Below are positions 14,481-35,579 of a stretch of 64,000 nucleotides of DNA, one piece after another; within the stretch, counting starts at the first letter, position 1, and the number at the start of each line of letters is the position of its first letter. The translations under genes and the position numbers were made by a program. Source of the stretch: Labilibaculum antarcticum (GTDB lineage: Bacteria; Bacteroidota; Bacteroidia; Bacteroidales; Marinifilaceae); contig NZ_AP018042.1 of NCBI RefSeq assembly GCF_002356295.1, positions 5,178,361 to 5,242,360 on the forward strand, read 5' to 3'. The notes under the pieces were generated by a model. That model searched no databases and had not been told where the DNA came from. It saw only the letters and a list, made by a program, of their open reading frames with translations.

Positions 14481-14537
14481 ATTCTTATTATGCTCTATAT
14501 TATCAATTCTAGACAATTCAATACCTATTTTATAAAT

Positions 14538-14575: not shown

Positions 14576-16642
14576 CTAGAACCACTCTGATTTTTCGCCA
14601 ATACCACTAATAAATAATCCTTGGATTGCTCTTGAGAAGACAACGTAATAAAGCGATCGTTCCTGTTTTTCGTATTCTGCTTTTTCTTTAAAAGAGTAAT
14701 CCTGGTATCCTGAATGTTTAAGAGGAACATTTGCTTTAGATGCACCAAGGACAAATACAAATTTAAATTCATGACCTTTCATGTTATGAAAAGAGGAAAC
14801 TTTAATGGCGTTAGATAGAGCCTTTGAACTACTGATATCATTATACTTAATATCATTTTTATTTAAGGTCTTCTTAATATCATCTACAGCATAGTTGGTT
14901 CTTGCACAAACACAAATATCTGATGCTTCAGCCTGTTCATTATCAAGCAATCCTTTAATATTAGACAGAATATATTCATCTTGTTCCTCAGGAGTATTAA
15001 AAATTTGATACTGGGGTTCATCCCCATACATCAAAGAAACATAGCCCTTGCTATTTTCTTCTTCTCCATCAAAATTATCGTAGGACTCCTTTGATACAGT
15101 TTTCAATGCCATGAGCTTGATTTGTTCAGTTGTTCGGTAATTAATTTTCAACTTCTTACTTCTTTGCCCGCGAACGCTAATCCCTGATTGGGAGAAATTA
15201 ATTTTTCGCTGGTAAATATTCTGAAAGGGATCACCAACTAGAAACATATCATTTTCATGCTCCGAAACCAAGGATCTCATTAATGTCAATTCATTGTTCG
15301 TAAAATCCTGAATTTCATCACAAATTATATGGGAATATGGTTTATCATCTCTATTTGAAAAGAACTCACTTAATAAATTACATAACTCCAACTTAGAATA
15401 ATTCTCATCTTTTCTCTTGGCGAAATCTTGTATCAAATTCCAAATTTCGATTTTTTCTTTTCGTCCTATTCTTACTGTCCGACCTGTTCGCGAAGTTTTT
15501 AAATATTGTTCCAATGATTTTACATTCTTTCGTAAAAGAACATCATGATATTCAGACATTAAAAAATCCTCACTCATAGATGATGGGTTATATTCCAAGA
15601 CTTCTTTCCAAATTTCTAATTCTTGTTTTTCTGTTAGGAAACCTGAATTTGAAGGAATAACCTGATATTTTTTATCCCTTGCGATCTCAAATATCAATTT
15701 GTCGAAATTTATTATTTGAATAGAGTCAGCAGCAATGCCCAGATCAGAAATGGTGTTTTGCAAGTAAGATGTGAGAGACTTAGTGTAAGTAGTAAATAGA
15801 ATTGGTTTGGCAAATATCTCTATCTTTTGAGCTAAGTATTTAGCTCTGTGCATCGCACACACAGTTTTACCCGTTCCTGCGCCACCAGTAACTTTAACTG
15901 GACCTTTATAATCGCTAAAAGCCAGTTTACGCTGAGAAGGATGTAGAAAGACTTTCCATTTATCAAAATCACCTGAAAGTATTTTATCTATATCTTCATC
16001 ATCCGTAAGCATATAAATATGCTTTCTTGCATTATCACTAGATTCTGCCTCTAAATTATTTTTACCAGCTTCAATTTCTTCCAAAATTTCTTCGTAAGCA
16101 ATTCCTTCAGCCAGAAAATATAGATACTCGAAGTTGTCAGCAGGTAAGTTGTTTTTGATTTTAGTTAAGTCATCTATTGCACATAGATTACGTATGGTTT
16201 CTATCATTTGATCAGGCGTCCCAATCGCTTTCAGATGCGCCACAGAGTACTTGTTGTAAAGCGTTTCGTTCTCAATGATTTTTGTTTGAATCTTAGTTTC
16301 TGGAAGATCATACATTTGAAATGATTGAGTATTCTTGTTCCATTCAAAAACCTTATTCATTGCCCATGACATCGCTTCATCATGATTATCAACCCACAAC
16401 AAATGATAATTACTCCCTTCCTCAGGAGCTTGAATAATAGCCCGATACTTTAAATCGACCCGAACAGTCCGTAATGATTTATCTGAAAATGAGGATATTT
16501 TCTCATAATTAATAGCAGAAGAGGTTGGGTTCAGTTTGAATTTCTTAATTAATTCTCTGGTTTTTTTTTGAATGTTCTTAGGAACTCTAGAAAAGGAATC
16601 GAGAAAAGAGTCGTGAAGAATTAGATTTATAGAATTGCTCAT
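14576..16642 (-). CDS. RelE-like domain fused to UvrD-type helicase
   Basis: A 688-residue fusion, last gene of the five-gene operon. Residues 1-95 resemble a RelE/ParE toxin fold: NLILHDSFLDSF, VPKNIQKKTRELIKKF, SLRTVRVDLKYRAIIQ and YHLLWVDNHDEAMSWA. A linker follows, then a superfamily 1 helicase: Walker A GGAGTGKT near 252, DEIQDF as motif II, GDPFQNIYQ as motif III, INYRT as motif IV, NMKGHEFKFVFVLG as motif V and YVVFSRA as motif VI. All motor motifs are intact. The ATG overlaps the stop of the preceding gene (TAATG), so translation is coupled. The RelE-like part may bind or cleave RNA, or just be a docking fold. Confidence 0.85.
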   Translation of the reverse strand: MSNSINLILHDSFLDSFSRVPKNIQKKTRELIKKFKLNPTSSAINYEKISSFSDKSLRTVRVDLKYRAIIQAPEEGSNYHLLWVDNHDEAMSWAMNKVFEWNKNTQSFQMYDLPETKIQTKIIENETLYNKYSVAHLKAIGTPDQMIETIRNLCAIDDLTKIKNNLPADNFEYLYFLAEGIAYEEILEEIEAGKNNLEAESSDNARKHIYMLTDDEDIDKILSGDFDKWKVFLHPSQRKLAFSDYKGPVKVTGGAGTGKTVCAMHRAKYLAQKIEIFAKPILFTTYTKSLTSYLQNTISDLGIAADSIQIINFDKLIFEIARDKKYQVIPSNSGFLTEKQELEIWKEVLEYNPSSMSEDFLMSEYHDVLLRKNVKSLEQYLKTSRTGRTVRIGRKEKIEIWNLIQDFAKRKDENYSKLELCNLLSEFFSNRDDKPYSHIICDEIQDFTNNELTLMRSLVSEHENDMFLVGDPFQNIYQRKINFSQSGISVRGQRSKKLKINYRTTEQIKLMALKTVSKESYDNFDGEEENSKGYVSLMYGDEPQYQIFNTPEEQDEYILSNIKGLLDNEQAEASDICVCARTNYAVDDIKKTLNKNDIKYNDISSSKALSNAIKVSSFHNMKGHEFKFVFVLGASKANVPLKHSGYQDYSFKEKAEYEKQERSLYYVVFSRAIQGLFISGIGEKSEWF

Positions 16643-19600
16643 TATTTAATGTTTTTTAGATCAAAGTTTTCCAATGTATATTCAGAGTAATCATTCTTTA
16701 TGAAATAGGCTTGATCCTCTTCACTGAATGGATTTATAAAGAATTTTTTATCGTGCGAACCTAATTCCGCCGAAGCCATTATTTCTTCATTATGGAGTAA
16801 ATCAAAATCGTATTCAGTATTAAATTCAATACCTGCTTTAATTAACTGCCTTACAATATCATGAAGTGATTCTTCAAAATTGGTTAGTATTTCCAAATTA
16901 GAATCAGACTTATTTTCTGGGACAAGTTTACTTGTAAAACCAGCTTCAATTTGGTGAAATTGAGAAAGGTTATAAACCTGCCAAAAGAATTCCCAATTAT
17001 CCTTTTCCCATTTCTCTATTGTATCATTTAGTAAAGCAAATCCCTTTGTCTTAAGCGTCTGAAGATGAATGAAAATTGACATACTCATTTCATCAGTAAA
17101 GTTTAAGTTATCAGATAAAGCATATTCATTGGGTTTATTCTTAGTGCCTTTATCTAGCTGAATTTTTTTTGAGTCAATAAAAGTTTCCACTAGATCCTCG
17201 CTGAAACATATATTTAATGCCTGATGTTGACAAGAAAATAAAAGAAGAGATGACCATTTACTTATCTCCGTTTTATTAATTGGTGATAGCAATAGATAAT
17301 TGAATCGATCAAAACTGTTCCCATTCATTAAAGTTTCGTCACTGTATTCCTTAAGTAGAGAGTGTTTATCACAGAGTTGTTTTGCAATGTTCTCATTAAA
17401 ACTAGCGTTAAAAGCATCTTTCGCTTTTAATTTTGCTTTGGAAATAATATCGTCCCATGAAAAAACCCACAAATGATATTTTCCGGATTGAACAATAGCG
17501 TTTCTAATTTTCATATCAGAAGGCACTCTTGGATGCTCTTTTGTAGCATGGAACGAATAACCATCTAAATAAACGACAATGTCTTTGACTTCTTCAATTT
17601 CAGAAAATGATAAGAATTGATCATTCTTAGAAATTGACACACATTTAAAAACAAAATCAGGTGTGGTAGTATAATTCACTCCCTTAAGATAATTACCCAA
17701 ATTTTGTGGCCATATCTCATAGATCATTTTACAATCCCCTTGTTCAAGATTTAAAGTATACTTTTTCTCACCTGGATCTGAACTCTCATAAAAGTTAGCT
17801 TCAAATTTTTCGGACAAAAGCTCAATGAACCGATCTTCCAAATCAGACTCCTCACTGTTTGCAAAACCATCAATCCCCTTTAAACTATCTACCACATTCC
17901 ATTCACCCGCCTTCTCTATTATATTTTGGAATAGATTTTCCGCTTCATTTCGACTTAAAATATCTCTTTCATACTGATTGCCATAGGTGTATATACACTT
18001 ATAACAGCCATCTTTACCTTCGTCTTTACAAGTACATAAACGAATTTTATCGTATGCAATTTGTAACATCTTAGTAAACTCTATAGGATCAAAAAGCTTT
18101 GAAAGATAACCTGTACCACCTGGGATGGTTTCATACATAATCAGATACCTGTCTTTTCTATTTGATTCTTTATTGAACTCTTCATATTCACGAATATGAA
18201 CATGATCAGGATGACCTTTGTAGTAATTTTTCAATCCAAGAAATAAGCCTGCTTTAAAAATTGAAACTCTTTCTTCTGTTCTAAAATCCTGTACAGGTAA
18301 AAGAATCTTTATTGCCTCGGTATAGAATTCTCTGTATAAGTATATTTCTTTAAAATAATCATCAGAATGACCTTTGTACTCCTGCTTTTTATTTGAACAA
18401 TATCCAAAGTGATATGATTTCTTTTTAGAAGATAATTCATACTGTGTGTATGCCCTTTCAGCTGTTTTACCACAGGTTTGACATACAACAAAACCAACTT
18501 CCGGAAAATTGGTGCCATTAATTTCTATTTCGCTGGTACCAAAAAAACCGTCTTCTTTTATTCCGGTATTTATTTCAATGTATTTTGTTTTTGAAAAGAA
18601 CTCTATTCCAAATGGAATTCGTTTCAATATTCGAGCACCTTTTGATGTCGTAGGATCCGTTTTAATGTGAATTGATTTTTGATAGAATTTACGATCACGA
18701 TCATCCTTTGTATCGGTAATCTTGGATTTATCGCTGTCATTAACCGAGATTACCGATTTTAAACGAACGATTGTCTTTTTATTGCTGGTTGCTCCCCAAG
18801 AGTTGTGACCACATTTGGGACAAACCGATTGATTGGATGGGACATCAATATCCAATTGCATTTCATCACAATTACTGCATAAACGATAAATTTCATACTC
18901 TTCACGAGAGAATATCTCCAGACCATGCATTTCAAGCATATGCCCTTGAGAGTAAAATATATTAGCAGGTGCGAGTTCTGAAATAGCAGAAGAAGAAGGT
19001 CTTATGATATCACCAAAACTTTCGCTTTTAAAACTCACAACACCGTCTTTCTCATTTTTCTTTACCACTTGAGCATTCAAAGACACTCCCGTTTCAGGGA
19101 ATGCATAATTGGGTAATATGCCTATGTTGGTTAAATATTCTACTACATTTCTTTTATTAATATTGTAAATAGCACCAGATAAAGCTTTCTTTTCTTTTTT
19201 AAGAATCAAGGCTTCAGGACTGGTTATTGGTAATTTCTTAAGATCACTTTCAAGCTTCTTACGTTTTGATTCATAATACTTGATCTCTTCCAATAAATTA
19301 AAATGAATTCGAGTAATTGAAGTAATGAAGACACCTGATAACAAGTCTTGTTTAATGATATCAAAAACCAAAGGATCTTCCTCTCTAGCCTCCTTAAAAT
19401 GCCCAATAAATTGTTCAAAAAGAAAATCTTTATTAAGCTCTATAAATTTTGCGATTTGATTAAATACAAATCTGTTGTCATCAATAGGCAGTGATTTTAA
19501 AGCCAATCGCTTTACCACGAAAGGTATTCTATTTGAGTCCGGGTCTGAGGAAGCCCATGTATCAAAGCAATAGGCCATAAAATGCCTTCTTAAAATATCT

Positions 19601-22600
19601 TTAGCTCTTAGGTAGCAAGCGGGTGTTCTGACTTCCCCTGCCATCATCTCCATGGGATCCTTGTAGTAATACAAATCGTGCTGATCGCGACCTGCCATGT
19701 TCAGAATTAAAGATGTACCGCTAGATCTTCCAGCACGCCCCACTCTTTGCAAGTAGTTCGACGTTTCAGGAGGTAAGGATGAATTAAAGGTTATATTAAG
19801 GTCGCCAATATCGATACCCATTTCGAGGGTTGAGGTGGCAACTAATACATTTGTACTTTTATAGGAGGGTCTTTTCTTAAAATCGTTTTCCAGCTCTTCT
19901 CTTTTATTTCTATCGATTAAGCCTGTATGATCATTTGCAAAAATACGTAGCGAGCGCCCACGATTGTAAACCATACGGTAGTAATCAAAAATATCTTCGC
20001 TATTTAGTTTATATTTACCCGGACACCTGTACTGCAAGCAAGACATGCCAGAAGTTATGGTTTCGTTTAAAACGCCCACATTCATTTCATGTCCACAAGT
20101 ACTACAAATAAATGTTTTTACTTCATTTGTTATTGCCAAGCTATCTTCAGATAAACCATAGTTAAGAACACCTTCAGCATTTTTTTTATCCAATAAATTA
20201 TTAGACTCTAAATCATCTAAAAGCTGTTTGTAGAAATCATTTATCAGGTTGGTTTCCTCATAGTTAATTAGAGGGAAAGATTTACGAAAAAAAGTACTGT
20301 ACCAATTGTGTTTCTTATCTATTTGAATCACATCGAACACCGCTGTATTCTTAGCTCGTTCGAGAGTTATAAACTTAGGCAAGCGAGTATGCTTCCCAAA
20401 ATTCTTAATCAAGAAATTACTCTTATTTATATTTTGAGTTATCAAATAATAATTAGTTTTCCCTGTTCTGAATGATTTCAGATAAGTATGATCCACTCCC
20501 CCTCGTTGTCGCAAGCGATGAAGAAAACCATTCAGGAATTTAAGAAAATCCTCCTTTTCAATTCTGTTATCGAGCGCATTTGCCTTGAGCCAATCCTTCA
20601 TCTGCTCAAATACATCAGTCATTTTCTTTGTATCAAAACAAATGGCGGAGGCAGCCGATCTTTCTAATGTACGACCCGTTGTGGCATTATAAGTAAATTC
20701 CGACCAGAGTTCCCAACTGATTCTGTTTGAAAATTCTCTATCAAAAGCATAGGGAAACTTACCCGATTTGTCTTTATAATCATCAATGGATATTCGACTA
20801 TCACAGTCGGGAGGAAGAAATTTAAAATAGTATGCTTCTATTGGGTTTTCAGCATTTTCATCTGCCTTCTGTTTCCAATGGTTCTCAAATTGCTTATAAA
20901 AGTCAGGTAATAAGACAGGTGTTTTATTTAGATTGATAGTGCTCTGGATGGCATGTCGCATGCCAAAACGGAAGTTTCTATTTTCGATAAAACCTGCCTG
21001 ATGAGCGGCATCTTGAACGCCGTTGGTAAAAGCTAATAATTTACGCTGTTTATCAGGCGTATCATCCATAGATGAAGCCAAAACCTGAGCTGTTGCCACA
21101 GATTCGATAGTGGGAATACCCGTACCTATCAAAGACAAATTATCGACGGTATTGCAATGAGGGCATATTTTTTGAATCCCATGCTGATCCTGCACACGAA
21201 CACCAAATATTTTAAAGGATTCAACGCTAAGCTTTTTATCAGACAAAATTAAAGAATGAGGATCGATGTATGCATCGATTGGATCACCAGTGTAATTGTA
21301 ATCTTCAGCAAATACTTGCTTAAAATCAGCATCCTGTAAGGATGAGATAAAGTAAATGTTCTTATTTTGGCTATCTGCCATAAACAACTGGCGTGTTCTA
21401 GCTAAATCTTGTTCGAGGGTTTCACTCTGCTCTTTTTTTATTGCTATCCATCCAGAAGCCCCACATTCTCTGCAATAATAAGGTGGAAGAGACAAAACAG
21501 GATCGGAGGTATTTATCTCAGATTCCCATTCGAAAACAGGAGTCGGTTGAACTTTCCTCAATATTCGGTTTAAACTTCGCAACCAGTAGGTAATTTGCAG
21601 ATACAAAAATGGGAATTGCTTAGTGCCAGACTGTTCTTTGGCATAAGACATCAAAGTTAATAATGAAGCAAAAAGAGCGTGAATCTTGTCATTCGATAAT
21701 GTGTTGTCAAGTCCCGTTTTATGCCCCCACTTAATTAAAACATCCTGAATATGGGAAACATTAGATTGAGTAATCTGTAGAAGGTAATATAACCACTCAT
21801 TGGTTTTTAAAAGCTCCCCCAGTTCAACTCTATTTTTATCAGCATAGCCCCAAAAAGCAAGCTGCCTGTTTATGTAAATTCCATATTCATCGGACTCATT
21901 AAAGCGACAATCTTCAATTTCATCCAGATTTATATCCGGCATTACTAAATCACTGGCAAAAAACTCTTCGGCCTCTAGACGCTGCTCTTCAACTACGGCA
22001 TCTTTAGTTACATGAACCCCAAATACATCGGAAAAGAATTGCACCAATTCCTCTTTCCCTTTTTCGCCACCTCCCATGGTTGCGGAAGTCCCAATAGGTA
22101 CAATTTGATTGTGAGGCAATTTTAATTTCAATTTTAATCTTCGAATCAAATTCGCGACATCTGAACCTTTGGCTCCATCGTAGGTATGGAGTTCGTCGAG
22201 AACCAAAAACTTAAGCAAGTCTGGCTGATTGTAGTTATGGCGCCACAAGCCATTATACTCTGCCCTCATCAGTGCGAAATCGAGCATTTTAAAGTTCGTT
22301 AATATGATATCAGGAGGTGAGCTTGTTATCGTTTGCCTATCCTCAATGATACCATCGGGTTCCATACGGGTTGATCGGGTTTTTCCTTTTGCTTTGCCCT
22401 CCCCAATAAAAAGACCCGCTCGAATTTGACCTCTTAATATGTAATTACCATCCTCATCTTTAAAATTATTAATCTCTTCCGCTAATCTACGAGCCTGGTC
22501 GGTTGCCAGGGCATTCATAGGGTAAAGTATAATGGCTTTAATGCCCGGAGTATCTCTATGTTGATAGCAATAGTCCAATAAAGGGAAAAGAAAACTTTCT

Positions 22601-22929
22601 GTTTTTCCGGAGCCCGTACCTGTGGTAAGAATTAGAGGTTCTGGAGTATTTCCATTACGGGTAGATAGACGCTTAAAAGCTTCAAATTGATGCCTGTATG
22701 GGTCAAAACCAGGCTTTATTTTTATGAAATGCTCAATATGGTCCGATTCATCCGTTTTTTCGAATGGCAAACGTACCTGCATAAAGGGACCTTTGAACAT
22801 TCCCTTTCGTTTATCGAAAAGAAAATCATTTAAAGCGAGCTTCAGGTTTTTATCCTGAAAATTAAAGGTTGCTTTGAGATATTCGGTTACAGAATGCTTT
22901 ATTTCTTCGGCTTGTAATATTGGGAGCAT
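16642..22929 (-). CDS. Giant DEAD/DEAH helicase with DUF1998 and Vsr-like tail (DruE/DrmA-DrmB-like)
   Basis: A 2095-residue COG1205-type helicase. The first RecA lobe has TGTGSGKT (about 101-108) and DELHTYDGAKG (about 243), then TSATMGGG. The second lobe has ATSTLEMGIDIGD and QRVGRAGR near 1060. Zinc-ribbon pairs occur at CRECG, CPHC, CSTCG, CSNC/CPKCG and CQTCG. The DUF1998 region ends with CTC, then GCYKC near 1640. Residues about 1700-1830 (TTPDFVF, then IVVYLDGYSFH and WVFSWDD) resemble a Vsr/DUF559 endonuclease fold. Size and plan match DruE of Druantia, or DrmA plus DrmB of DISARM in one chain. It starts 1 bp after the upstream stop. Confidence 0.9.
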   Translation of the reverse strand: MLPILQAEEIKHSVTEYLKATFNFQDKNLKLALNDFLFDKRKGMFKGPFMQVRLPFEKTDESDHIEHFIKIKPGFDPYRHQFEAFKRLSTRNGNTPEPLILTTGTGSGKTESFLFPLLDYCYQHRDTPGIKAIILYPMNALATDQARRLAEEINNFKDEDGNYILRGQIRAGLFIGEGKAKGKTRSTRMEPDGIIEDRQTITSSPPDIILTNFKMLDFALMRAEYNGLWRHNYNQPDLLKFLVLDELHTYDGAKGSDVANLIRRLKLKLKLPHNQIVPIGTSATMGGGEKGKEELVQFFSDVFGVHVTKDAVVEEQRLEAEEFFASDLVMPDINLDEIEDCRFNESDEYGIYINRQLAFWGYADKNRVELGELLKTNEWLYYLLQITQSNVSHIQDVLIKWGHKTGLDNTLSNDKIHALFASLLTLMSYAKEQSGTKQFPFLYLQITYWLRSLNRILRKVQPTPVFEWESEINTSDPVLSLPPYYCRECGASGWIAIKKEQSETLEQDLARTRQLFMADSQNKNIYFISSLQDADFKQVFAEDYNYTGDPIDAYIDPHSLILSDKKLSVESFKIFGVRVQDQHGIQKICPHCNTVDNLSLIGTGIPTIESVATAQVLASSMDDTPDKQRKLLAFTNGVQDAAHQAGFIENRNFRFGMRHAIQSTINLNKTPVLLPDFYKQFENHWKQKADENAENPIEAYYFKFLPPDCDSRISIDDYKDKSGKFPYAFDREFSNRISWELWSEFTYNATTGRTLERSAASAICFDTKKMTDVFEQMKDWLKANALDNRIEKEDFLKFLNGFLHRLRQRGGVDHTYLKSFRTGKTNYYLITQNINKSNFLIKNFGKHTRLPKFITLERAKNTAVFDVIQIDKKHNWYSTFFRKSFPLINYEETNLINDFYKQLLDDLESNNLLDKKNAEGVLNYGLSEDSLAITNEVKTFICSTCGHEMNVGVLNETITSGMSCLQYRCPGKYKLNSEDIFDYYRMVYNRGRSLRIFANDHTGLIDRNKREELENDFKKRPSYKSTNVLVATSTLEMGIDIGDLNITFNSSLPPETSNYLQRVGRAGRSSGTSLILNMAGRDQHDLYYYKDPMEMMAGEVRTPACYLRAKDILRRHFMAYCFDTWASSDPDSNRIPFVVKRLALKSLPIDDNRFVFNQIAKFIELNKDFLFEQFIGHFKEAREEDPLVFDIIKQDLLSGVFITSITRIHFNLLEEIKYYESKRKKLESDLKKLPITSPEALILKKEKKALSGAIYNINKRNVVEYLTNIGILPNYAFPETGVSLNAQVVKKNEKDGVVSFKSESFGDIIRPSSSAISELAPANIFYSQGHMLEMHGLEIFSREEYEIYRLCSNCDEMQLDIDVPSNQSVCPKCGHNSWGATSNKKTIVRLKSVISVNDSDKSKITDTKDDRDRKFYQKSIHIKTDPTTSKGARILKRIPFGIEFFSKTKYIEINTGIKEDGFFGTSEIEINGTNFPEVGFVVCQTCGKTAERAYTQYELSSKKKSYHFGYCSNKKQEYKGHSDDYFKEIYLYREFYTEAIKILLPVQDFRTEERVSIFKAGLFLGLKNYYKGHPDHVHIREYEEFNKESNRKDRYLIMYETIPGGTGYLSKLFDPIEFTKMLQIAYDKIRLCTCKDEGKDGCYKCIYTYGNQYERDILSRNEAENLFQNIIEKAGEWNVVDSLKGIDGFANSEESDLEDRFIELLSEKFEANFYESSDPGEKKYTLNLEQGDCKMIYEIWPQNLGNYLKGVNYTTTPDFVFKCVSISKNDQFLSFSEIEEVKDIVVYLDGYSFHATKEHPRVPSDMKIRNAIVQSGKYHLWVFSWDDIISKAKLKAKDAFNASFNENIAKQLCDKHSLLKEYSDETLMNGNSFDRFNYLLLSPINKTEISKWSSLLLFSCQHQALNICFSEDLVETFIDSKKIQLDKGTKNKPNEYALSDNLNFTDEMSMSIFIHLQTLKTKGFALLNDTIEKWEKDNWEFFWQVYNLSQFHQIEAGFTSKLVPENKSDSNLEILTNFEESLHDIVRQLIKAGIEFNTEYDFDLLHNEEIMASAELGSHDKKFFINPFSEEDQAYFIKNDYSEYTLENFDLKNIK

Positions 22930-22930
22930 A

Positions 22931-25900
22931 TTAATTTTCTTTAATTTTTAACGAAATTAAATAATCTGCTGAGCTTACTGAATAGTGTTCATTATTTAAG
23001 AATGAATCTTCGTCGATAAAAAAGTTTTCTATGATATGGATGTTATTACCATGAACCAAAGCAATTTGATATCGATCCTTATAGTCAAAACCTGTTTTTT
23101 TCTCATCCTTGCTCAAATGGAATGTTCTACCATTAAAGGCTTTTACTTCCAAATAAAACCAATCGGGGTTGTTAATATTTTTATATTGAATATCGTAATG
23201 AAATGTATCTGACTTATCGGTTTTATATTTGGAATTGCCCGATACCCACTCCACCTCTTCAACATCAACAGAAGCTACTAGCGTGTTGAAAACCAACTCC
23301 TCTGCCTTTTCACCCAATTTCTTATTCCTACTAATATCCTTATCTGAATGTATCCACCTATTACTTGTTGGTTTACTAGTTCCTTTAGGTTCAATTGCAG
23401 TAGTTTGGCTAATAATAACATTACCTATCCGAGGTTCTATCTTTTTAAGATCGTCAGATTCGACAGAACACCTGGATAGGGAAATAAATTCCTTTTCCAG
23501 TTTTTCTTCGTTTCCTTCAAAATACAAAAGACTTTTCAATTTATTGTCCTGCAGGTCATCATCATGAAGACTATATTTATCCAATAGGTGTTTGTATTTA
23601 TTTTCAAAACATTTCTTTATTTCTACATCTACAAGTAAACTCAAGTTAAATAAACGATAGGTCGCATCTTTTATAATATCAATATAATTCAGGTCTAAAT
23701 TGAATTTATTGTCATCCAGTATTTGTAGGATAGATTCATCAGATTTTATTTGATCAAACGAAATTTGCTGATCAATAAGTAATGCTTGTTTTTCTTTCTC
23801 GTTGTTCAATTTGAGCCACAACAAAGAATTAAACCTAGACTTAAGATCTTTTAGTGTATTTTCCAAACCTCTCTTGTGAGAGCTTCGAATTCCAAAGGAG
23901 TTGCTTTCCAAAATTTCATCCAAGCTGAAATCCAATGCATTCGAAATCCAAACTAGAAAATTGAAACTTTCCAAGTTTTTAAAATCATTAAAGTCGACTG
24001 TCTGATAGTAATCTGGGAGAATAAGTGAAAATTCCTTTTCCAAAACAGAGCTTAAAATCTTTGTATTACTGATTGAACTCTGGAGGGATTTACCTTTAAG
24101 GACAAATACTTTTTCCCAAAACATCATTTCGACTTCTGAAAAACCCAATAATTTAAAAGCACGCATCCGAAGATCTGTTAATTCATCTACTTTAATAAGG
24201 TGCTCTACTTCACGAATATGATCTTTAAAAATAGTCCTGAACGTATTCTTCAGTTCCTTTATCTTAAAGCAGATGCAAATCATCTCTGCTATGGCATCAC
24301 AAAGAAAGGAATTCTTTTGAAGCTGATTAATATCTCTAAAATTAGGACTACTCTTTAGATAGAAGGTTGAATCGATATTTATAAATTCGTTTTCATCAAG
24401 TTCAATTTGTTTGATTTCTCCAAAACTGTATTGACAATTATCAACTAAACAAATGGACAGATTTTTGATTGAATTGACCTCAGTCTGTTCATTATCGCCC
24501 TTTTTAAGCGTATTCAACCGATAGGTTAATAGAAAAGGTTTGATTCGATCGAAATAAGAAATGAACGTTTTATTTAAAGGATGTCCTTCATAAGAGACTA
24601 ACTTAATGTTTTTCACTTCATCTTTAATGAGTGATACACCAAAAAACTCTTTTACATTTTGTTCTCCTTTACGTTTGGGTAAATTAAGCATCCAAAATTT
24701 ATTGAGAATATTTTGGGGTAAAATGTTATTATCAGAGTAATATACCTCACTCGCCATAATGGGTTCTAATTTTCCAGTTAATCCTCCTTTACGAGCGAAA
24801 TATTTAATTTCAGAAAAATCAGGCTTGTAACCCCTAAGTTTTGCCTCTTTATTTTTGGCGAAATATTCTAAAACTCGATTGTAGACTGTCTGACTCCCAT
24901 TTGCGTCATCGTTCGTGACTTGACGTAAAAGCTCATAAATTTTATGAGGTTGTAAATCATTAAATGATTTATTAGCACCTAGTTTTTTTAAGACATAATT
25001 TATATCAGTCCTGTCAATATTTAGTTCTGAAAAAACTCGATTCTCAAAATCGAATGTATCAAAACCGCTATTCCCTATTAATTCATCCTCAATCAGAATA
25101 TTTGCAAATAGATTTTCCCTGTATAATTGATGAAAAATATAAGAGGGTTTTTCATGAAGTTCTGTTGTGTTTTTATTGTAGGTATATTTAAAAACATCCT
25201 GATTTTCTCTTTCAAGCTGAGATAATATTTTCTTATCAATAAGTATCCATGCCACCAGTTTCTCTGTAGAAATATCCTTTGATTCCAGTATCTCAGCAAG
25301 GTTATCTATTGTAAAGACATTGTAATATTTCCAAGGATTGTTTTCAGGCGTACGCGTATTTTTAAATACAAAATCGATGTAGGGATCAGAGTTCCATCTA
25401 TTGACATCTTTTTCAATTTTTTTAAACTTTGTGTGTTTATTCACTCCAAGCCATAAAAAGAAGTTTTCGATGAATTTACTATCCATATCTTCTTGATAAA
25501 AATCCCATGAATCCATATCTGCAACAAAGTCCTTATTTTCATAAAAGTCCTCAAAAATAAGCTCTGTCTTATTTCCAGAAGGAAAGCCCTTCCCCAAAAA
25601 AAGATCACTACTAAGTGTTTCTTCTCCATTCCGGTTTAGTAAAAGAACTTTTTCGTCAATTATTCCTCTCCGTTCGGGGTTCTTTTTAAAAATATGGAAT
25701 AATGATTTGGAGTATTGTTGAAGTATTGTCTTCTTATCTACTGTAGTTGTTCGTAAATGACGATTGGTTGCACTGGTCATGTTCCGAATCACATCCGTTA
25801 TATCATTTGAGCCCATATTGAATAATGGCGATAAAACTTTTTTAAGTGGACGTGAAATATCTTCGTTGTTCGATCTATACTTTGCTATATCGGCAGAAAA

Positions 25901-27523
25901 ACGATTCGTGAGAGACAGGTATAAATTATTACTTATAAAAGACAGTTGTACGTATTCAGGTATTTCATACTCATCCGTTGAACCTTCTTTTAGAGTAAAC
26001 ACCTGCTTGCTGGCTTCCACAACTTTTTCATCATGATTTAATAAAAGGGGCAGAGAAATTTTATTATGGAATTGTGAAAAAGAATCATCCATTAAGAGGG
26101 CAATTAATTCCACTCTCTCCTCTATTTCAGAAATTTGAGATGTTAACTGACCCATTTTTTCCGTAAATTCGTCTTTGCTGTATTTGGCAGGAAAGTGCCC
26201 TGTATTAAAATTTATATCCTCATCTATTGGAATTAATAATTCAGGGAAAAATTCTTGAAAGCTGTTCTTCTGCACCCAGATTGCAAATTTGTTACCATAA
26301 TATTTAACAGAGGTCATTGTTCTGTAATTACCATCCAAACATGGATAGAGTGCAAGCGAATTTCTTTTATCCTGCAAATCTTGAAAAAAAGGAATCAATA
26401 ATTTACTATCACTCTTGCCTAAAGGCAAGAGTATTCTGTATGAATCCCAATTAGGCTCAGCACTATTTTGCAAGTTATCAATAGACAAACAAGCCAATAT
26501 TGAAACCAATTCCCTTAATATATATTTGTTATCGTCTGTCGGGTTTAAATAATTTCGTGACGGATCTAAATCAAAAGTGGCGTGAATTAAATAGGGCAAA
26601 TGTGTAGATAGCTGCGTTGGGAAATATGTGAAGAAACGAGAATCTTTATCCGACAAATCCTCTTTCCAAGCTATCTTAATCCTGTAATTTTTGTTTTCCT
26701 GTCCATTTATTTGCAAATCTTTAGAATCGTAAACTTGCCATTGTTCATTATTTACATTAATGAATTGTTGGTCTTCGATAATGGTTTTGGATAAGCTAAG
26801 GATTTTCTCATGGCCATCAGATTCAATACGAATTCGTTTTGTTGAATTCAAAAAAAGAAGAATCTCTGGTTTTAAAGTAGCCAGTTGTTTCTCAATATCC
26901 TCAATATATGCCGCTTTGTACTCTATTTGAATTGAAGTTATCCATTCTAAATCTGAATCGTAAATGGGTTCAAAACTTGGTATTGCTAGAACAGCAAAAG
27001 GGACAGTGCCAGCCTGTAAATCATCCTCTTCATCGATTAAAACTTGTCGTTGTATTTCATCTTCGATGATAGACTCAAATTGCTGTTTCGCAATTTGAGG
27101 TGAAAAAGTAAGGCATACCTCACTCGTCATAATCTTAACTTCGGTTGCCCAGTTTAAGATGGAGCGGAAGCCCAGTCCCTTATTTCCAATAAACTCTTTT
27201 TTGTTTTTAGAGCTGGTATTCGCCAACATCAATGATTGCAAGCCTTTTAAATCGAAAGGATTACCATTATTAGAAATCGTTAACAGCTGTTTCTCTTTAT
27301 TTAAGCTAATAAGAACTTCATCGGTTTTTGCATCGTCGGCATTCTGCAAAAGTTCCAGGAGTTGACGACCATTATAAGCCTCGGTAAAGCCCTTTTCCCC
27401 TCTATAATCACTTATAATCCTTTTTGTAGAAATTTTATAGGTAGCCACATTTTCCTTTATCAAAGCTTTAACACCTTCGATAAAAGTTGTATCGTGTAAA
27501 GTATCTGTTAAGTTCATTATCAT
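22931..27523 (-). CDS. Hsp90-like (GHKL) ATPase with C-terminal DUF3883 nuclease-like domain
   Basis: A 1530-residue protein. Residues 40-130 are a Bergerat-fold ATPase like that of sacsin and Hsp90: N-box LLELLQNADDA (55-64), G1 box ISNNGNPF (83-90), and G2 box IGNKGLGFRS (112-121). A long region with no recognised domain follows. Residues about 1395-1500 form a DUF3883/PD-(D/E)XK-like domain with GEKAEELVFN, HYDIQYKN and the E-x-K triad residues in YLEVKAF (near 1457). The likely role is ATP-driven conformational control of a nuclease. The start codon directly abuts the stop of the methylase gene, and an alternative ATG lies two codons in. Confidence 0.85.
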   Translation of the reverse strand: MIMNLTDTLHDTTFIEGVKALIKENVATYKISTKRIISDYRGEKGFTEAYNGRQLLELLQNADDAKTDEVLISLNKEKQLLTISNNGNPFDLKGLQSLMLANTSSKNKKEFIGNKGLGFRSILNWATEVKIMTSEVCLTFSPQIAKQQFESIIEDEIQRQVLIDEEDDLQAGTVPFAVLAIPSFEPIYDSDLEWITSIQIEYKAAYIEDIEKQLATLKPEILLFLNSTKRIRIESDGHEKILSLSKTIIEDQQFINVNNEQWQVYDSKDLQINGQENKNYRIKIAWKEDLSDKDSRFFTYFPTQLSTHLPYLIHATFDLDPSRNYLNPTDDNKYILRELVSILACLSIDNLQNSAEPNWDSYRILLPLGKSDSKLLIPFFQDLQDKRNSLALYPCLDGNYRTMTSVKYYGNKFAIWVQKNSFQEFFPELLIPIDEDINFNTGHFPAKYSKDEFTEKMGQLTSQISEIEERVELIALLMDDSFSQFHNKISLPLLLNHDEKVVEASKQVFTLKEGSTDEYEIPEYVQLSFISNNLYLSLTNRFSADIAKYRSNNEDISRPLKKVLSPLFNMGSNDITDVIRNMTSATNRHLRTTTVDKKTILQQYSKSLFHIFKKNPERRGIIDEKVLLLNRNGEETLSSDLFLGKGFPSGNKTELIFEDFYENKDFVADMDSWDFYQEDMDSKFIENFFLWLGVNKHTKFKKIEKDVNRWNSDPYIDFVFKNTRTPENNPWKYYNVFTIDNLAEILESKDISTEKLVAWILIDKKILSQLERENQDVFKYTYNKNTTELHEKPSYIFHQLYRENLFANILIEDELIGNSGFDTFDFENRVFSELNIDRTDINYVLKKLGANKSFNDLQPHKIYELLRQVTNDDANGSQTVYNRVLEYFAKNKEAKLRGYKPDFSEIKYFARKGGLTGKLEPIMASEVYYSDNNILPQNILNKFWMLNLPKRKGEQNVKEFFGVSLIKDEVKNIKLVSYEGHPLNKTFISYFDRIKPFLLTYRLNTLKKGDNEQTEVNSIKNLSICLVDNCQYSFGEIKQIELDENEFINIDSTFYLKSSPNFRDINQLQKNSFLCDAIAEMICICFKIKELKNTFRTIFKDHIREVEHLIKVDELTDLRMRAFKLLGFSEVEMMFWEKVFVLKGKSLQSSISNTKILSSVLEKEFSLILPDYYQTVDFNDFKNLESFNFLVWISNALDFSLDEILESNSFGIRSSHKRGLENTLKDLKSRFNSLLWLKLNNEKEKQALLIDQQISFDQIKSDESILQILDDNKFNLDLNYIDIIKDATYRLFNLSLLVDVEIKKCFENKYKHLLDKYSLHDDDLQDNKLKSLLYFEGNEEKLEKEFISLSRCSVESDDLKKIEPRIGNVIISQTTAIEPKGTSKPTSNRWIHSDKDISRNKKLGEKAEELVFNTLVASVDVEEVEWVSGNSKYKTDKSDTFHYDIQYKNINNPDWFYLEVKAFNGRTFHLSKDEKKTGFDYKDRYQIALVHGNNIHIIENFFIDEDSFLNNEHYSVSSADYLISLKIKEN

Positions 27524-30500
27524 TTATTCTTTCTCTTTAAAAACCTTCTCAAAATGTGCCCAGGCTGTTTTGTAATCCTCTACACGATCACATTTATCAA
27601 AAGGGGCATAATAAGTTTGCTTCTCTCCTTTATAGAGCTCACTTTTTGTAATGGTGTGCTCATAGGTTTCACCTGCGGCTAGGTCTTTTATCTTATTCCA
27701 CTCATTACGGGCTAAGCCAACACCCGTTAAGCCACTACTGAAAGTAAATACGATATTTCCTCTGGTATCATACCAAGTATCCGCTTCGTTTTGTTGCAAC
27801 ACTGGAAACTGCACATTGTAAATTAAAATTAACTCATCCAATGTAAGCCCAAAAGCCATAGCAGTAATTACATCAATCTCAACCAATGCCTGACGGCGTT
27901 CAAAATAATTTCGCAATGGTGTATCCCATTGCCAATCTTGGGTTAGTTTATTAAAGGGCTTTAAACGAATATCAGTTTTACTCCAATTATCCAAAGAAAA
28001 TTCAGATTGATAGTTTTGGCACCATAAAACAGTATAGTGTTCGTTAAGACAATTAAGTAAAAGGGTTCTTACAAATAATTGAGGGATAAAATAATTATCA
28101 ATACCAATCGGGAATTTTTTAATTAACTCACCTCGAAGATTTGACTTCCCGACAGACTTTATATAAAAATCCATCATTAGAGACGAACTTATACCTGCAA
28201 ATTCAATCAATTCTTTATTCGTTTTGAAAATAATTGTCACAACGCCATCAATATGAGATACTTTTGGTGGAATAATTGCAGGCTGAAGAGTGCGCTCTCC
28301 TGAAATGGAGAGCATTTTGCTAAAACATACTTTATACTCATGAATCCATGACTTAACAATATTATTACTCTTATTACGATCACAGAAATTATTCAAATTT
28401 TCATCGGGTATATAGTTGGTTCGAGGAATAAAATTGCCTTCTATCATCGTAAGGTCAATGGCGTCATAGTCAGAGTTTAGTTTACATTCACTACGTGGTG
28501 TTTTATACAAAGGAGTTGCCACAAAAAAATGCGGTCCACTATATATGAGTTCGTATTTATCAATGTCTGGAAACTGAGTATTCCGTATCATTATTCCGTC
28601 TTGTACAGCAATAGTTTCGTTCCAACAATCCGTTATATGGTATTTAGAATCTTCTACTTTTCCATTGAATATCGATAGCTTCTCCAATACTGAAAGAATT
28701 TGTCGAGTATGGATTGATACTAATTTCGCACCCTCCCATTTGGAGCTATTCTCGAAGGTTTGAGCCAATAGCCTGAGTTCATTTTCACCGAATTTAATTA
28801 TTCTGTCTTTATGAGATCGAATATTCCAATCCATTTTCCCTGTTTGTTCATCTATAGTCTTGTAGCCACCAGCCATGCCATGCCCATCATGAATAAAACT
28901 ACCATCTATTGTTGAGGGATGAAATAGATTATTTATGGAGATGAAACCAACATCTTCTTTTTTACCTTTATATACATGAGTACTATAGGCATTATGATGA
29001 TCAATTTCGGGAAAAAGCATTCGTTCATTTTTAAACTGAAAATGATATTTTAATCTTTTATATACTTCTCTTCGAAGATTGGTACCTTTAGGATCATCAT
29101 AAATACTTTCTGGATGAATTAAACCAACATAACCATTAATATTAATAAAATCAATACAATTAACTAATATAGACTTATATAAATCAGTTCGTTGACCTCT
29201 TAATAATTGATAGCATTGTTTACTTCCAAGGAAAGTCTTTGTCGATATAGCCCACAGTTCTTCTTTCGAATAACTAATCTTAAGCTTTGGTAATAGTTCA
29301 ATTTCCTTTAAAAGTAGATCTGACACCTTAGGGGCTGAATATTTTCGAAGAAAAACTTCCGGATAGTATTCTGATAGAATTCCAGTTTTATCCAGCTCGA
29401 TTGTTACCCATGGTGGATTCCCAACAATCACATCAAAACCACCCCGTTCTTTAAATACCTCAATAAATTCCAATTCGTTGTGGAAAAAGCGGTATTGGTT
29501 GCGCATTTCCAATACGCTAGCAATGCGGTTTCCTTCAAATAGAGTCAATTTATTGGCACCCTGATTTTGTAGTATGTATTTTATTTGATCGGTGCTTGTA
29601 TTTTCATCAATATCACTCAATTTGATACCCACCAAATTGGTCAATTCATTGTACCATTTTGTTCTGTCAGGCAAATTCTCCACATCTCGTACATCCCAAA
29701 ACCAGAGTGCGCACCAATAGTCCATAATGGTGCGTAATTTGTGATAAGCTCCAGCTCGGTTATTTTTACTATCGGTTAATCGTTCTTTATCGGCGTAGTT
29801 TTTTAAAGCCAATTTTGGCGAAGAATCCCCATATAATTGGTAATGTGAAGCTGTGTCATGCGCAATGGCGGTTATTTTTTGGTAGTGTTCTTCGAGCAAT
29901 ACATCAATTAATCGAGATAGTTTTACTACTTGTTTTACCTCTTCACCATTTAAAGGAGAACAAAATTCATGTTTCCAAGTCGTGAATTTATCTTTTTGTG
30001 CCTTTGTCAGCTCTTCCTTAAGCAGCTGGCTGTTGAAACTTGCTACCATTGCTTTATCAGGCAATAAAAAATGATAAACCTGTTTATCCACATTACGGTT
30101 CAATTTTCCTTGCTTGTTCCATTGCACTCGTTTTGGGGCTTTTGTCCACCAAGCTTTGGCAATTGGTTTGTTGCGCTGAGAAAGTGTCCCTTCAGAAGGG
30201 AACTCTGTATTAAAATCCTTAACTTCATATACCTTTAACCAAGCCCCTACTACGGCATTCCCTGTAGCCAAACGGTGAGCAAAGAATGGGGTTTCCATGT
30301 CTTTGTGCATGCAGTTAAGCCATAAAGACAATTTACCCAGTTCTACAGCTGTGGGATTTAAATCGACCCCATATACATTGTTGGCTGCAATAAAAGCTTT
30401 TACTTTTTGTAATTCATCGTTGTAATTCCCCGGGGTAATTCGTTTTCGTCCTTTATGTAGTTCCTCGTTTTCTTTTAACTCCAAATAAGTTACCGCCAAT

Positions 30501-32320: not shown

Positions 32321-32332
32321 AATAACATCATC

Positions 32333-35161
32333 TTAAGCATTGTAATAAACTGCCAATAGTCGTAAAAAGGGTTGATTTCGTAATTGGAAAATTTCCTGAT
32401 AGAAATTATTCGTATTTTTGTGTACCGCTTCAACGTCTTTTTTTCGTTGATCTCGTTTCGAACTTTTAACGCTCTCTACCTTACCAAACTTTAACTCCAG
32501 TTGGTTTTCAGAATCATCCAACCAATTGTCTATTCGTGTTTTGTACACTTTCAATTTATCTTCCAAATCATCCTCTAAACTACCTTGCAATTGTGAGGTG
32601 TAAAGTGATTTTGCTATTTCAACAGCACCGGGTAACATGTCCTGCAGTATTTTAAGTTGGTTATCTTCTACCTCTAATGTTGGTAAGGTGTCGGATAATC
32701 GAAACTCTTTTATAAAATCGCTAAAGCTTTCGTAGTTCCCCTGGCTTTGACCAATAAATGATCTCCCTATTACAAAGTTCTTAGAGAGGATAGCTTGTCC
32801 TTTACCGTTGGAACTTATACCCTGAAATACAAACCAAGCCGAATTTTCAGGAAGTGGATGTCGCATTCGTGCTACCAATGCTCTTCCTTTATCGACCTTA
32901 GCCAATAGTTTATGCTGCATCCAGCGCGCTATAGGGTGCAAATCGTAAAGCAATTGAAATTTAGGCCATACATTTTTCTTTTTACGCGCTGATTCGATAG
33001 CTCGTTCTACAATTTCCTTATTCGTCGTTAATTTAAAAGTATCCTTCTTTGTAGGAAAGGCATTTTCTGGTAAATCATACAACACACCATCAAGTGATAG
33101 TTCTTTATCCTGACTGATTTCGATAATAGAATCTTCATTATCAACTGAAAAACGTGACTTCCAATGTTCGTCCGAATTTACAATTTCATCAACTAGATTA
33201 CGGTAGTAGGAAAATTCGTTGGGGTAAAATGAAGTGAATCCAGAATCAAAAGAGACTTGATTCCCATTAGATTTATTGTTCTCTTCTACACTAAAAATAT
33301 CCAGCCAATCCGTCTCTTCCTCTTTACTATCGTCAACAAGGGAAAGGTCTGAGCTCGCAATAGCTTTTATCGTTAAATTTTCCTCTTCTTTGGCATCAAA
33401 TAACTTCCAAACATTTCCGGCATCTCCCAAGTTTTTGTAAACTTCGTCTTCCTTTTCTTTTAATCTCTCCAAAATTCTAATATCCCCCTGTACCTTGTCG
33501 TTTTTAGAATTTGCTATTAGATAGTAGATAAAAGGTGTTTCAGTCTGGCCAAATCGATCGATACGTCCATTACGTTGATCGAGGGTAATTATTGACCATG
33601 GCACATCATAGTTAAACATTTGATGACAATGGTAATGAAGATTCACCCCTTGGCTACCTGCATCAGAAGCAAGAAACAGTCGGATTTCGCTGTCTTCCTT
33701 TGAGAAATCTTCAATAAGATCCTGTTGTTTGGTATCTAAAAGACTCCCATTAAACTGAACAACTGCTGAATTACTCAACGAAAAGTCATTTTTCAACTTT
33801 TCCTCCAGTTCATTCAAAGTAGCATACCTTTCAGCAAAAATAATTATGCGTTCATCTTTTTTACGCCCCTTCCAATTCAGAATATTTAGCTGTTCTTTCA
33901 GAGCCAAGTATTTAGCATCTAGTTTATTTGCTATAATATGTTCGATCCTTTTCTTTAAATCACACAAAAATTCTGAGACATTTTCCTCATCATTGCCACC
34001 TTCTAACCGTTTTGAAATAGTCGTTAAACAAGCTTTTGGAGAAGACATATAAGCTTTAAATAGCCCAATGGAAAATAGCAATATTCCATAAGTCATATTA
34101 CCATCAGCTTCCTCAAACGCCTCTCGTTTGAAATTATTGATAAGCTCCAAAACGTCCTCTTCTTCGTCAAAAAGTTTACAATCAAGTTTTTCAGTGACTC
34201 TATCTCTAAAGGAATCACCTACTTCAGATTCTACATCTTTTTTAAATCTCCGAACATATAAAGGAGCTATATCTTCCTTAATAAAATCACCATCACTAGG
34301 AATGGCAGTTGGATCCAATAGTTTAATTAGGTTGGCGAAGTTTTCTTTTTTACCATTATGTGGTGTTGCAGACGTCAATACCATAGCATCACATTTCGTA
34401 GATAAGAATTTCGCCAAACTACCCCTTTGACTGGCAGAATTTGCTACTGTATGGCACTCGTCAATAGCAATAATATCCCAATGCACTTTTTCAAGATTGT
34501 GACGAAATTTGGCATTGTTTTTAAGAGTGTCAATTGAAACAATTACCTTATCATAGTAATCAAATGGGTTCTTGTTTGTTGGGAGTATATTTTTAATGCG
34601 AGCGATACCCGTACTATCCAATTTCACCAAAGGAATAGCAAATCGGGCCCAAATATCTTGCTGAAATTGGGCTAAAATTGATTTCGGTGTCACCACCAGA
34701 ATTTTATTTCCCTTACCACGGCGAATCAACTCAGACAAAAAGATACCCACCTCAATTGTTTTACCAAGACCTACAGCATCAGCAATCAATATTCGTGGTT
34801 TTGGTAATCCCAAAGCCTTAATGGTTGGTTCAAATTGATAATTTGTTGCTTTTATGGCTGCTTTATCAGCTATTTCGATGGATTCGGTATAATGCGATGA
34901 ATTACGAAGTGTCGTTTCAATAAAAAGCTTCGTTCTACGATAATTTGGAGATTGATCTCCAAGCAAAATGGTATTTTCAGGGGTTATGATATCAAAATTC
35001 TCCAATTTTAAATCAAAGGAAAATTTCATGCCATTTACTAATTCTGTGATCCCCTCAACTTCAACAATGTGGTTTTTATTCTGTGTCACCAAGAAATCTT
35101 CTCCTCTAACAGTAATTCTAACTCCTGGAGTTATAGATGTAATCTGATCTTGTACTGTCAT
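32333..35161 (-). CDS. SNF2-family helicase (DrmD-like), first gene of the five-gene operon
   Basis: A 942-residue SWI2/SNF2 translocase. The N-terminus has a small beta-rich domain (1-65). Motif I is ADAVGLGKT (127-135), motif II DECH (234-237), motif III TSATPHNGKK, and the second lobe has LFLASDAGSQGVNL and QRNGRIDRFGQ as motifs V and VI. The C-terminal 400 residues have a RapA/HepA-like look without a nameable domain. It is similar in kind to DrmD of class 1 DISARM. Upstream lie a 12-bp palindrome and a 16-mer shared with the region upstream of recD. Confidence 0.88.
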   Translation of the reverse strand: MTVQDQITSITPGVRITVRGEDFLVTQNKNHIVEVEGITELVNGMKFSFDLKLENFDIITPENTILLGDQSPNYRRTKLFIETTLRNSSHYTESIEIADKAAIKATNYQFEPTIKALGLPKPRILIADAVGLGKTIEVGIFLSELIRRGKGNKILVVTPKSILAQFQQDIWARFAIPLVKLDSTGIARIKNILPTNKNPFDYYDKVIVSIDTLKNNAKFRHNLEKVHWDIIAIDECHTVANSASQRGSLAKFLSTKCDAMVLTSATPHNGKKENFANLIKLLDPTAIPSDGDFIKEDIAPLYVRRFKKDVESEVGDSFRDRVTEKLDCKLFDEEEDVLELINNFKREAFEEADGNMTYGILLFSIGLFKAYMSSPKACLTTISKRLEGGNDEENVSEFLCDLKKRIEHIIANKLDAKYLALKEQLNILNWKGRKKDERIIIFAERYATLNELEEKLKNDFSLSNSAVVQFNGSLLDTKQQDLIEDFSKEDSEIRLFLASDAGSQGVNLHYHCHQMFNYDVPWSIITLDQRNGRIDRFGQTETPFIYYLIANSKNDKVQGDIRILERLKEKEDEVYKNLGDAGNVWKLFDAKEEENLTIKAIASSDLSLVDDSKEEETDWLDIFSVEENNKSNGNQVSFDSGFTSFYPNEFSYYRNLVDEIVNSDEHWKSRFSVDNEDSIIEISQDKELSLDGVLYDLPENAFPTKKDTFKLTTNKEIVERAIESARKKKNVWPKFQLLYDLHPIARWMQHKLLAKVDKGRALVARMRHPLPENSAWFVFQGISSNGKGQAILSKNFVIGRSFIGQSQGNYESFSDFIKEFRLSDTLPTLEVEDNQLKILQDMLPGAVEIAKSLYTSQLQGSLEDDLEDKLKVYKTRIDNWLDDSENQLELKFGKVESVKSSKRDQRKKDVEAVHKNTNNFYQEIFQLRNQPFLRLLAVYYNA

Positions 35162-35497: not shown

Positions 35498-35542
35498 ACC
35501 TATTTCATTATAAAATATTACCTCACAGGATTGATAATCCTT

Positions 35543-35579
35543 AACTCCTTACCCGCAGATTACAAATCTGCGGAAGCTG
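35543..35579 (+). repeat. Palindromic repeat R4
   Basis: Fourth copy of the 37-bp repeat: CCGCAGATTACAAATCTGCGG core with the arm bases compensated (G-C instead of C-G) relative to R1. It lies 7 bp past the stop of the macrodomain-like gene. Confidence 0.8.

Follow-up and report, generated by a model that had tools for sequence, protein, structure and literature searches.

The operon and its four core genes

The region analysed is a window of 64,000 nt from the genome of Labilibaculum antarcticum (assembly GCF_002356295.1, contig NZ_AP018042.1, positions 5,178,361-5,242,360 of the forward strand), in which five minus-strand open reading frames (ORFs) occupy positions 14576-35161, a span of 20,586 bp. 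No internal stops were met on translation, and the ORFs are joined, from the armA side, at 12, 0, 1 and -1 bp, in agreement with an earlier reading made from the letters alone (the sequence-only reading), which had described five minus-strand genes with these joins in 20.6 kb. Judged by sequence, four of the five genes are those of the ARMADA type II defence system, in the published order but interrupted by one gene. The genes and features are listed below by window coordinates.

32333..35161, minus strand: armA, SNF2/RapA-type (BrxHII/DrmD-like) helicase, 942 aa
27524..32320, minus strand: armB, PglX/YeeA-like adenine DNA methyltransferase, 1598 aa
27548..27607, minus strand: 3' end of armB, conserved (APFDKCDRVEDYKTAWAHFE), which anchors the slot on its left, from the ArmB C-termini of 23 loci
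22930..27523, no strand: armB/armC cargo slot with one gene inside, from gap statistics, slot contents and the Escherichia coli junction search
22931..27523, minus strand: tmtA-like cargo gene of the Tiamat type, 1530 aa, with a sacsin/Hsp90-type ATPase at the N-terminus and a nuclease-like NOV_C domain at the C-terminus
23048..23302, minus strand: residues 1408-1492 of the TmtA-like protein, its NOV_C domain, a predicted Hjc-like PD-(D/E)XK nuclease
16642..22929, minus strand: armC, YprA/DruE-like helicase with a fused zinc-binding MZB (DUF1998) region, 2095 aa
17440..17832, minus strand: ArmC from about residue 1700 to 1830, predicted to form a Vsr-type nuclease region, with D1758 and D1789-G-x3-H1794
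16645..16902, minus strand: tail domain at the C-terminus of ArmC, from about residue 2010 to 2095, from a profile search
14576..16642, minus strand: armD, RelE-like N-terminus fused to a UvrD/GajB-like helicase, 688 aa

ARMADA type II, in the accessible text of its description (Bell et al., bioRxiv 2025, PMC12458937, posted 15 Sep 2025), comprises a BrxHII/RapA-like ArmA, a PglX-like ArmB, a YprA-like ArmC and a GajB-like ArmD with a RelE-like N-terminus, encoded by four genes in strict order. According to the same text, the operon of E. coli NCTC 12900 protected against 13 of 80 phages and required all four genes, the residues of importance being K136/D236 of ArmA, K110/D234 of ArmC, K266/D454 of ArmD and the NPPW motif of ArmB, and the D454N change in ArmD abolished activity only in part. 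The locus in the window shares with that system the four families in strict order and the conserved catalytic motifs, and differs in having a further gene, TmtA-like and encoding 1530 aa, at the armB/armC junction, where the accessible part of the description mentions no insertion. The sequence-only reading had found no system to which the combination could be assigned, a view superseded by the match of four genes to ARMADA type II (PMC12458937).

Six plasmid ARMADA II loci (two from E. coli and one each from Aulosira, Pseudanabaena, Microvirga and Tsukamurella) showed the order A-B-C-D, armB being followed by armC without another listed gene; in Tsukamurella, ArmC is split. Five of the six were used for the core-protein alignments, with the Tsukamurella ArmC omitted (leaving four ArmC sequences). 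ArmA of the window was 33-37% identical to its five plasmid counterparts, with K134 and D234-E235 invariant at the places of the published K136/D236; ArmB was 30-39% identical to five, with NPPW (968-971) invariant; ArmC was 28-30% identical to four, with K109 and D245-E-x-H invariant; and ArmD was 27-34% identical to five, with K259 and D442-E443 invariant. Pfam domains were SNF2-rel_dom and Helicase_C in ArmA, Eco57I in ArmB (a methylase domain, the sole one found), DEAD, Helicase_C and MZB in ArmC, and UvrD-helicase and UvrD_C in ArmD; MZB we take to be the equivalent of DUF1998. The domain content described in the sequence-only reading was supported by these Pfam matches (SNF2, Eco57I, sacsin/HATPase with NOV_C, DEAD/Helicase_C/MZB and UvrD), as was its placing of DrmA and DrmB functions in one DruE-like chain, here DEAD/Helicase_C and MZB within ArmC. 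In Lujinxingia (locus L097, 94-6504, minus strand), armC is inverted and lies upstream of armA, an exception to the strict order.

Over its full length, ArmB matched the PADLOC model PDLC03614 (2233 bits), whose label, REase_MTase_IIG, is probably a catch-all. A type IIG restriction-modification enzyme, in which one chain combines methylase and endonuclease and acts alone, was provisionally rejected as an identity for ArmB: a methylase domain was the only one found by Pfam, and armB travels with armA, armC and armD. In the predicted Vsr-type region of ArmC, the D and DG-x3-H residues were invariant across 26 ArmC C-termini; the Vsr-like Pfam family REase_MTES_1575 was matched by one of these 26 (7e-4), which was not that of the window. 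Comparison of the Vsr region with the ArmC tail by hhalign found no similarity, and the tail is therefore not claimed to be a decayed Vsr domain.

The Tiamat-type gene between armB and armC

The fifth protein matched the PADLOC model for TmtA (PDLC03964) at 1014.5 bits over residues 15-1528 and is, by family, a Tiamat-type TmtA, an assignment made from sequence profiles. Its N-terminus carries the Pfam sacsin/HATPase domain and scored 72.5 bits against NCBIfam P_loop_sacsin (cut-off 50), and a profile built from it and eight relatives matched the solved ATP-binding domains of sacsin and Hsp90/HtpG. The C-terminus matched Pfam NOV_C, presumably the same family as DUF3883, at 29.2 bits (cut-off 22.1), and in six sequences, including that of the window, E, D and E-x-K were invariant. 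When the last 200 residues were modelled from these six sequences, at a modest mean predicted local distance difference test score (pLDDT) of 69, the closest structures in the PDB were Hjc Holliday-junction resolvases (probability 1.00, E 1.3e-3, template-modelling (TM) scores 0.38/0.58), no PDB match being obtained at E <= 0.001. On this model, the tail is probably an Hjc-like nuclease.

Tiamat is known as a stand-alone gene. The gene in the window resembles the PADLOC model of Tiamat in its full-length match, its sacsin/Hsp90-type ATPase and its NOV_C tail, and differs in lying co-directionally inside another defence operon with joins of 0-1 bp. The suggestion in the sequence-only reading that this Hsp90-type gene takes the place of DrmC did not hold, the gene being a Tiamat-type one at a position where other ARMADA II loci are empty or hold unrelated systems.

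Occupancy, contents and edges of the armB/armC slot

Junctions were compared in a genome scan based on the ArmB alignment, which covered the best 80 of 582 relatives, seven loci from viral contigs and the six plasmid loci, and by tblastn of the five proteins; individual loci carry L numbers. With a gap of at least 600 bp taken as open, the armB/armC junction was open in 42 of the 74 loci in which it was resolved, against 8 of 86 for armA/armB and 0 of 41 for armC/armD. The 74 exclude loci without a resolvable downstream armC (12 of which showed at least 1500 bp after armB) and L035, which was fetched via TmtA rather than ArmB; similar loci were all retained, among them the near twins L032/L038 and L051/L060. 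L151 was too short (3.2 kb), the 799-aa fragment G1322 was not included and L152 had no armD in view. Some loci were retrieved twice with different ends (L142=L051, L131=L100, L137=L047, L138=L039, L139=L069, L140=L040, L141=L053). The armC/armD junction was at first visible mainly where the armB/armC gap was short, and six occupied-slot loci were therefore added; their armC/armD joins were all between -4 and 26 bp, and those of L136, L138, L139 and L141 were likewise tight. Beyond the slot, armC and armD were both present in L131, L133 and L153. Slot genes of at least 150 aa were co-directional with the operon in 87 cases vs 10 opposite (43 slots). Genus-wide searches matched 3 of 398 Flavobacterium and 1 of 173 Chryseobacterium genomes, all at loci already in the set. 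Less often, inserts of 1.8-2.4 kb were seen at another place, between armA and armB (L044, L049, L056 and L059).

The armB/armC junction is a variable internal cargo slot, a new arrangement of a known system and a known gene. No description of such a slot was found in the literature on ARMADA or on embedded defence genes, as far as the accessible texts go, supplements and most subscription papers lying outside the search.

The contents were classified by a PADLOC scan of 39 cargo proteins, chosen from the 165 ORFs of 120 aa or more in the slots together with those of Marinobacter, at E limits of 1e-3 or 1e-4. Thirty of the 39 gave matches, which in some cases were partial or generic and were not controlled for chance. 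The cargo was as follows.

Marinobacterium L088: Zorya I ZorA1, C1 and D1 (a 254-aa gene between ZorA and ZorC lay outside the scan)
Enterovibrio L087: Zorya II ZorA2, B2 and E2
L051: AbiEi/AbiEii
L091: PsyrA with a partial pAgo-like match
L039 and L135: MkoA-like (Mokosh-like) helicases
L131 and L135: GmrSD-like HEC-05/06
L132: LeoA/LeoBC dynamin-like pair, the contig ending before armC
L065: McrBC (Pfam)
L069: patatin and P-loop ATPases
L043, L089 and L125 (by PADLOC) and L040, L047, L048, L053, L059, L061, L064, L072 and L111 (by clustering): TmtA-like proteins, of several PADLOC subfamilies

Besides the window, twelve loci encoded TmtA-like proteins downstream of armB, two of them (L040/L140 and L047/L137) in two copies. 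By tblastn, the TmtA of the window (P0003) matched ten ARMADA loci of the set, always downstream of armB and nowhere else. The order armA-armB-tmtA-armC-armD, with TmtA alone in the slot, was found in Chryseobacterium gilvum (L053/L141), a Fermentimonas metagenome-assembled genome (L061/L166) and Kaistella chaponensis (L111/L167), and with another TmtA subfamily in Bowmanella pacifica (L089/L168); L048/L169 had this order plus one more gene. The sequence-only reading had set the five genes apart as one combination: no single described system was found to hold all five, as it had supposed, and their order recurs in these four other bacteria, yet the fifth gene proved interchangeable. Seven viral contigs encoded ArmB relatives, one of which (L125) had another TmtA in its slot, and no close relative of the window TmtA (P0003) was found on viral contigs; ARMADA II and TmtA may be carried by mobile elements. 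On the Microvirga plasmid pMVF16-5 (L036), a 1584-aa DUF3883 protein is encoded at 18336-23090 (minus strand) downstream of ARMADA II, convergent with it and outside the slot.

Exchange of cargo was most visible in Marinobacter, in which ArmB was encoded by 6 of 124 genomes, all six with other genes after armB. In five of these armC follows (L134, L135 and L136, and, after about 15-16 kb, L131 and L133), the sixth (L132) reaching its contig end. Between L131-L135, ArmB was 72-87% identical and the cargo different, with the exception of a Zorya II-like block beside armC common to L131, L133 and L134. Nucleotide homology between these loci is lost some 20-50 bp ahead of the armB stop codon; in 23 loci the ArmB C-terminus consisted of a conserved block followed by a few residues that vary between loci. 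The closest relatives of the window, L138 and L139, encode ArmA-D about 56-64% identical over full length (ArmB 58-59%, ArmC 56-58%), and their cargo is MkoA-like/PIN/AAA and patatin/P-loop ATPase, respectively, neither being TmtA as in the window. Kinship of TmtA and ArmB also disagreed, with 67% identity for ArmB and 28% for TmtA between L048 and L137, against 52% and 43% between L111 and L137.

The 3' end of armB was present a second time, as copies of 54-108 bp with 85-88% identity, between cargo modules in L072, L087, L125 and L133, with frame and own stop codon kept in L072 and L087 and the frame shifted in L125 and L133. This test covered the 106 sequences listed, skipping those with <300 bp after armB; 16-24-nt matches to the armB end alone (L041, L071 and L102) were left uncounted. 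Integrases insert at gene ends, and displaced armB copies are the trace expected from repeated insertion at the armB 3' end; at the level of sequence, they suggest insertion of cassettes at that end.

The C-terminal tail of ArmC was found on some cargo proteins as well. Among 6,836 ORFs, a profile built from the C-terminal 150 residues of 52 ArmC sequences matched the C-termini of eight cargo proteins with E-values of 9e-22 to 4e-7, namely the ZorE2-type proteins of L087, L110, L131 and L134, a HEC-05-like protein of L135, a 711-aa protein of L062, the TmtA of L089 and a UvrD-type protein of L108. Outside the slot, the tail was found on ZorE2-type proteins of L101 (5368-6510) and L108 (1661-2776, minus strand), 38-41% identical to the ZorE2 of L087, and on second YprA-family helicases upstream of armA in L087 (577-6978) and L112 (578-6901), with weak matches in a few others. 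The TmtA of the window gave no match to the profile. An unassigned, nuclease-like C-terminal extension has been reported for Druantia-associated ZorE in 53 of 59 leaves (PMC13192584). The ArmC tail may correspond to this C-terminal ZorE extension of Druantia-associated Zorya II.

Outside the operon, the sequence-only reading had seen two repeats, R3 and R4, as its bounds. Their position was as described (12505-12548 and 35536-35579), whereas a boundary role was not upheld: a third copy of the 44-bp palindrome is present at 10054-10097, and nine exact copies of the core, CAGATTACAAATCTG, occur in the 5.72-Mb genome (three in the window) vs none for the reversed control. As a dispersed repeat, it was rejected as marking element ends or an operon boundary. 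Upstream of armA (37395-41051, minus strand), three adjacent genes (365, 409 and 381 aa) each matched PDDEXK_4, a PD-(D/E)XK nuclease family. Directly downstream of armD (12567-14516, minus strand) are three small genes (181, 284 and 176 aa), the middle one with sub-threshold matches to Abi_2/HEPN_Swt1 and the other two without any Pfam match; these are possible further defence genes.

Interpretation and significance

Taken by its sequence, the locus is very probably an ARMADA type II operon with a Tiamat-type gene in the internal cargo slot between armB and armC. By analogy with the E. coli system, ArmB would mark self DNA, ArmA and ArmC would travel along or open unmarked invading DNA, the predicted nuclease end of ArmC would cut it, and ArmD would assist through its helicase and RelE-like parts, so that phage would be blocked without killing of the cell. 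TmtA would add another layer of defence, for the most part independent of the first: in response to a trigger, either DNA or protein, its sacsin/Hsp90-like part would close as an ATP-driven clamp, and the Hjc-like nuclease domain could then cut DNA. As tmtA is co-directional with its neighbours and joined to them at 0-1 bp, it would be read from the ARMADA transcript. Cassettes would enter at the armB 3' end and bring their own copy of that end, leaving armB intact, and homologous recombination through armB and armC would then exchange cassettes between strains.

Several results count against this reading or parts of it. The high rate of open armB/armC junctions in the 80-locus scan arises because that set favours relatives of the window. 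A more even draw of genomes (10 of 395 from the window's phylum and 7 of 398 from that of Marinobacter, known loci included) gave 13 stretches, of which 12 were evaluable, one of these (L157) being very probably the contig of L079, which has the same length; nine of the 12 junctions were closed, two had short inserts of about 1.3-1.4 kb and one a slot of about 24 kb (L153/L175). In E. coli, examined for near-isogenic pairs with an empty and an occupied slot, one place covered at least 80% of the joined armB-armC query in 514 of 518 matching genomes (of 5,426), all junctions among the 40 places listed being single pieces, in a search in which pieces up to about 1.1 kb apart were joined, so that smaller inserts do not split a place. 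With this draw and E. coli mostly closed, slot occupancy is lineage-dependent. In Marinobacter L174, a TmtA-like gene (about 9932-10978) lies just after armD, outside the slot. On the armC side, resumption of homology at the ATG was seen in the only two loci compared, L134 and L135. A clear displaced armB end was present in just 4 of the 106 listed sequences, the slot of the window held no second copy of the armB 3' end, and Pfam detected no recombinase among 20 cargo proteins, no wider search for a recombinase or an att-like core having been made. At the protein level, the G1-box of the window TmtA reads N-x-G, the usual form being D-x-G. The N-terminus of ArmD aligns with that of E. coli ArmD and reached 17.7 bits against ParE_like, below the Pfam cut-off of 24.4; of the RelE-UvrD fusion described in the sequence-only reading, the UvrD part stood and the RelE-like part had this sub-threshold match alone. 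For the Vsr fold, a structure search with the whole ArmC C-terminal model gave no match at E <= 0.001, and a profile search of solved structures with this region gave only four weak matches to repeat proteins.

That TmtA is instead an integral subunit ("ArmE") of a five-component system, working only with ArmA-D as a sensor or extra nuclease, for example, was considered improbable. It would fit the five-gene order with TmtA alone in the slot in four other bacteria, the occurrence of TmtA-like proteins after armB in twelve loci (two with two copies) and the ArmC tail domain at the end of the Bowmanella L089 TmtA. However, many ARMADA II loci lack TmtA, among them the active four-gene system of E. 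coli and the closest relatives of the window, the TmtA subfamilies vary between loci without tracking ArmB kinship, and the window TmtA has no match to the shared tail. Little credence was likewise given to the view that genes between armB and armC are ordinary defence-island clutter at no special site. Defence genes do cluster in islands, PADLOC models are broad, with several of the 30 matched cargo proteins hit only partially or generically and without a chance control, and most junctions were closed in the more even draw; yet the adjoining junctions are seldom open (8/86 and 0/41), the cargo is co-directional (87 vs 10), the edges on the armB side lie within a few codons of one another, those on the armC side coincide with the ATG in both loci compared, and four slots contain a duplicate of the armB end.

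A variant of class 1 DISARM or of Druantia, with which the locus shares helicase and methylase families, is scarcely credible. The sequence-only reading had rightly seen a probable anti-phage operon with parts common to both, and ArmA does match DrmD (NCBIfam, 320.8 bits) and ArmC DruE1 (320 bits; 188-320 bits across the PADLOC DruE models). The ArmA score, however, is far under the curated DrmD cut-off of 610, MZB is fused within the helicase with no separate DrmB (DUF1998) protein, and the gene order is another one. No PLD domain, that of the DISARM nuclease DrmC, was found by Pfam in the five proteins, as had been noted earlier, or in 13 flanking window genes, and class 1 DISARM was rejected on these grounds. 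Druantia was provisionally rejected on the gene order and RelE-UvrD gene, which are those of ARMADA II; no DruH or DruA-D was among the matches listed for the five proteins, flanking genes lying outside the PADLOC scan.

Payne et al., in a 2024 bioRxiv preprint as later papers cite it, reportedly described defence genes embedded in other defence operons. Such genes have been described in type I restriction-modification and Hma operons, namely TgvAB (PMC11411939) and DarTG2 (PMC12255303), and in this literature hsdS-hsdR has been named as a potential recombination hotspot. The cases described there and the ARMADA II operon have in common that one defence system is nested between the genes of another, and differ in that the host here is ARMADA II, the slot is armB/armC and displaced armB 3' ends occur in some slots. 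A more far-reaching proposal, which we put forward tentatively and regard as doubtful, is that ARMADA II is a cargo platform, with the armB 3' end as a dedicated capture site, at which defence cassettes insert and armB is restored in the process. The tail common to ArmC, ZorE2 and several unrelated cargo proteins would then couple the captured systems to ARMADA, as a tag for docking or for recognition of DNA.

For annotation, the PADLOC matches indicate that PADLOC-DB 2.0.0 (2023) would report the operon in pieces: wrongly as a type IIG enzyme, as a Tiamat and as partial matches to Druantia or DISARM. Through the type IIG label of ArmB, this library is likely to mislabel ARMADA II loci. An operon that seemed nameless has become a known system to which a rule open to testing is attached. 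Should armB/armC be a capture site, its contents would supply candidates for defence systems not yet described, and part of the synergy between systems would be explained by nested co-expression, with the shared tail as a concrete handle on it. The arrangement suggests that one immune system can act as a carrier for others.

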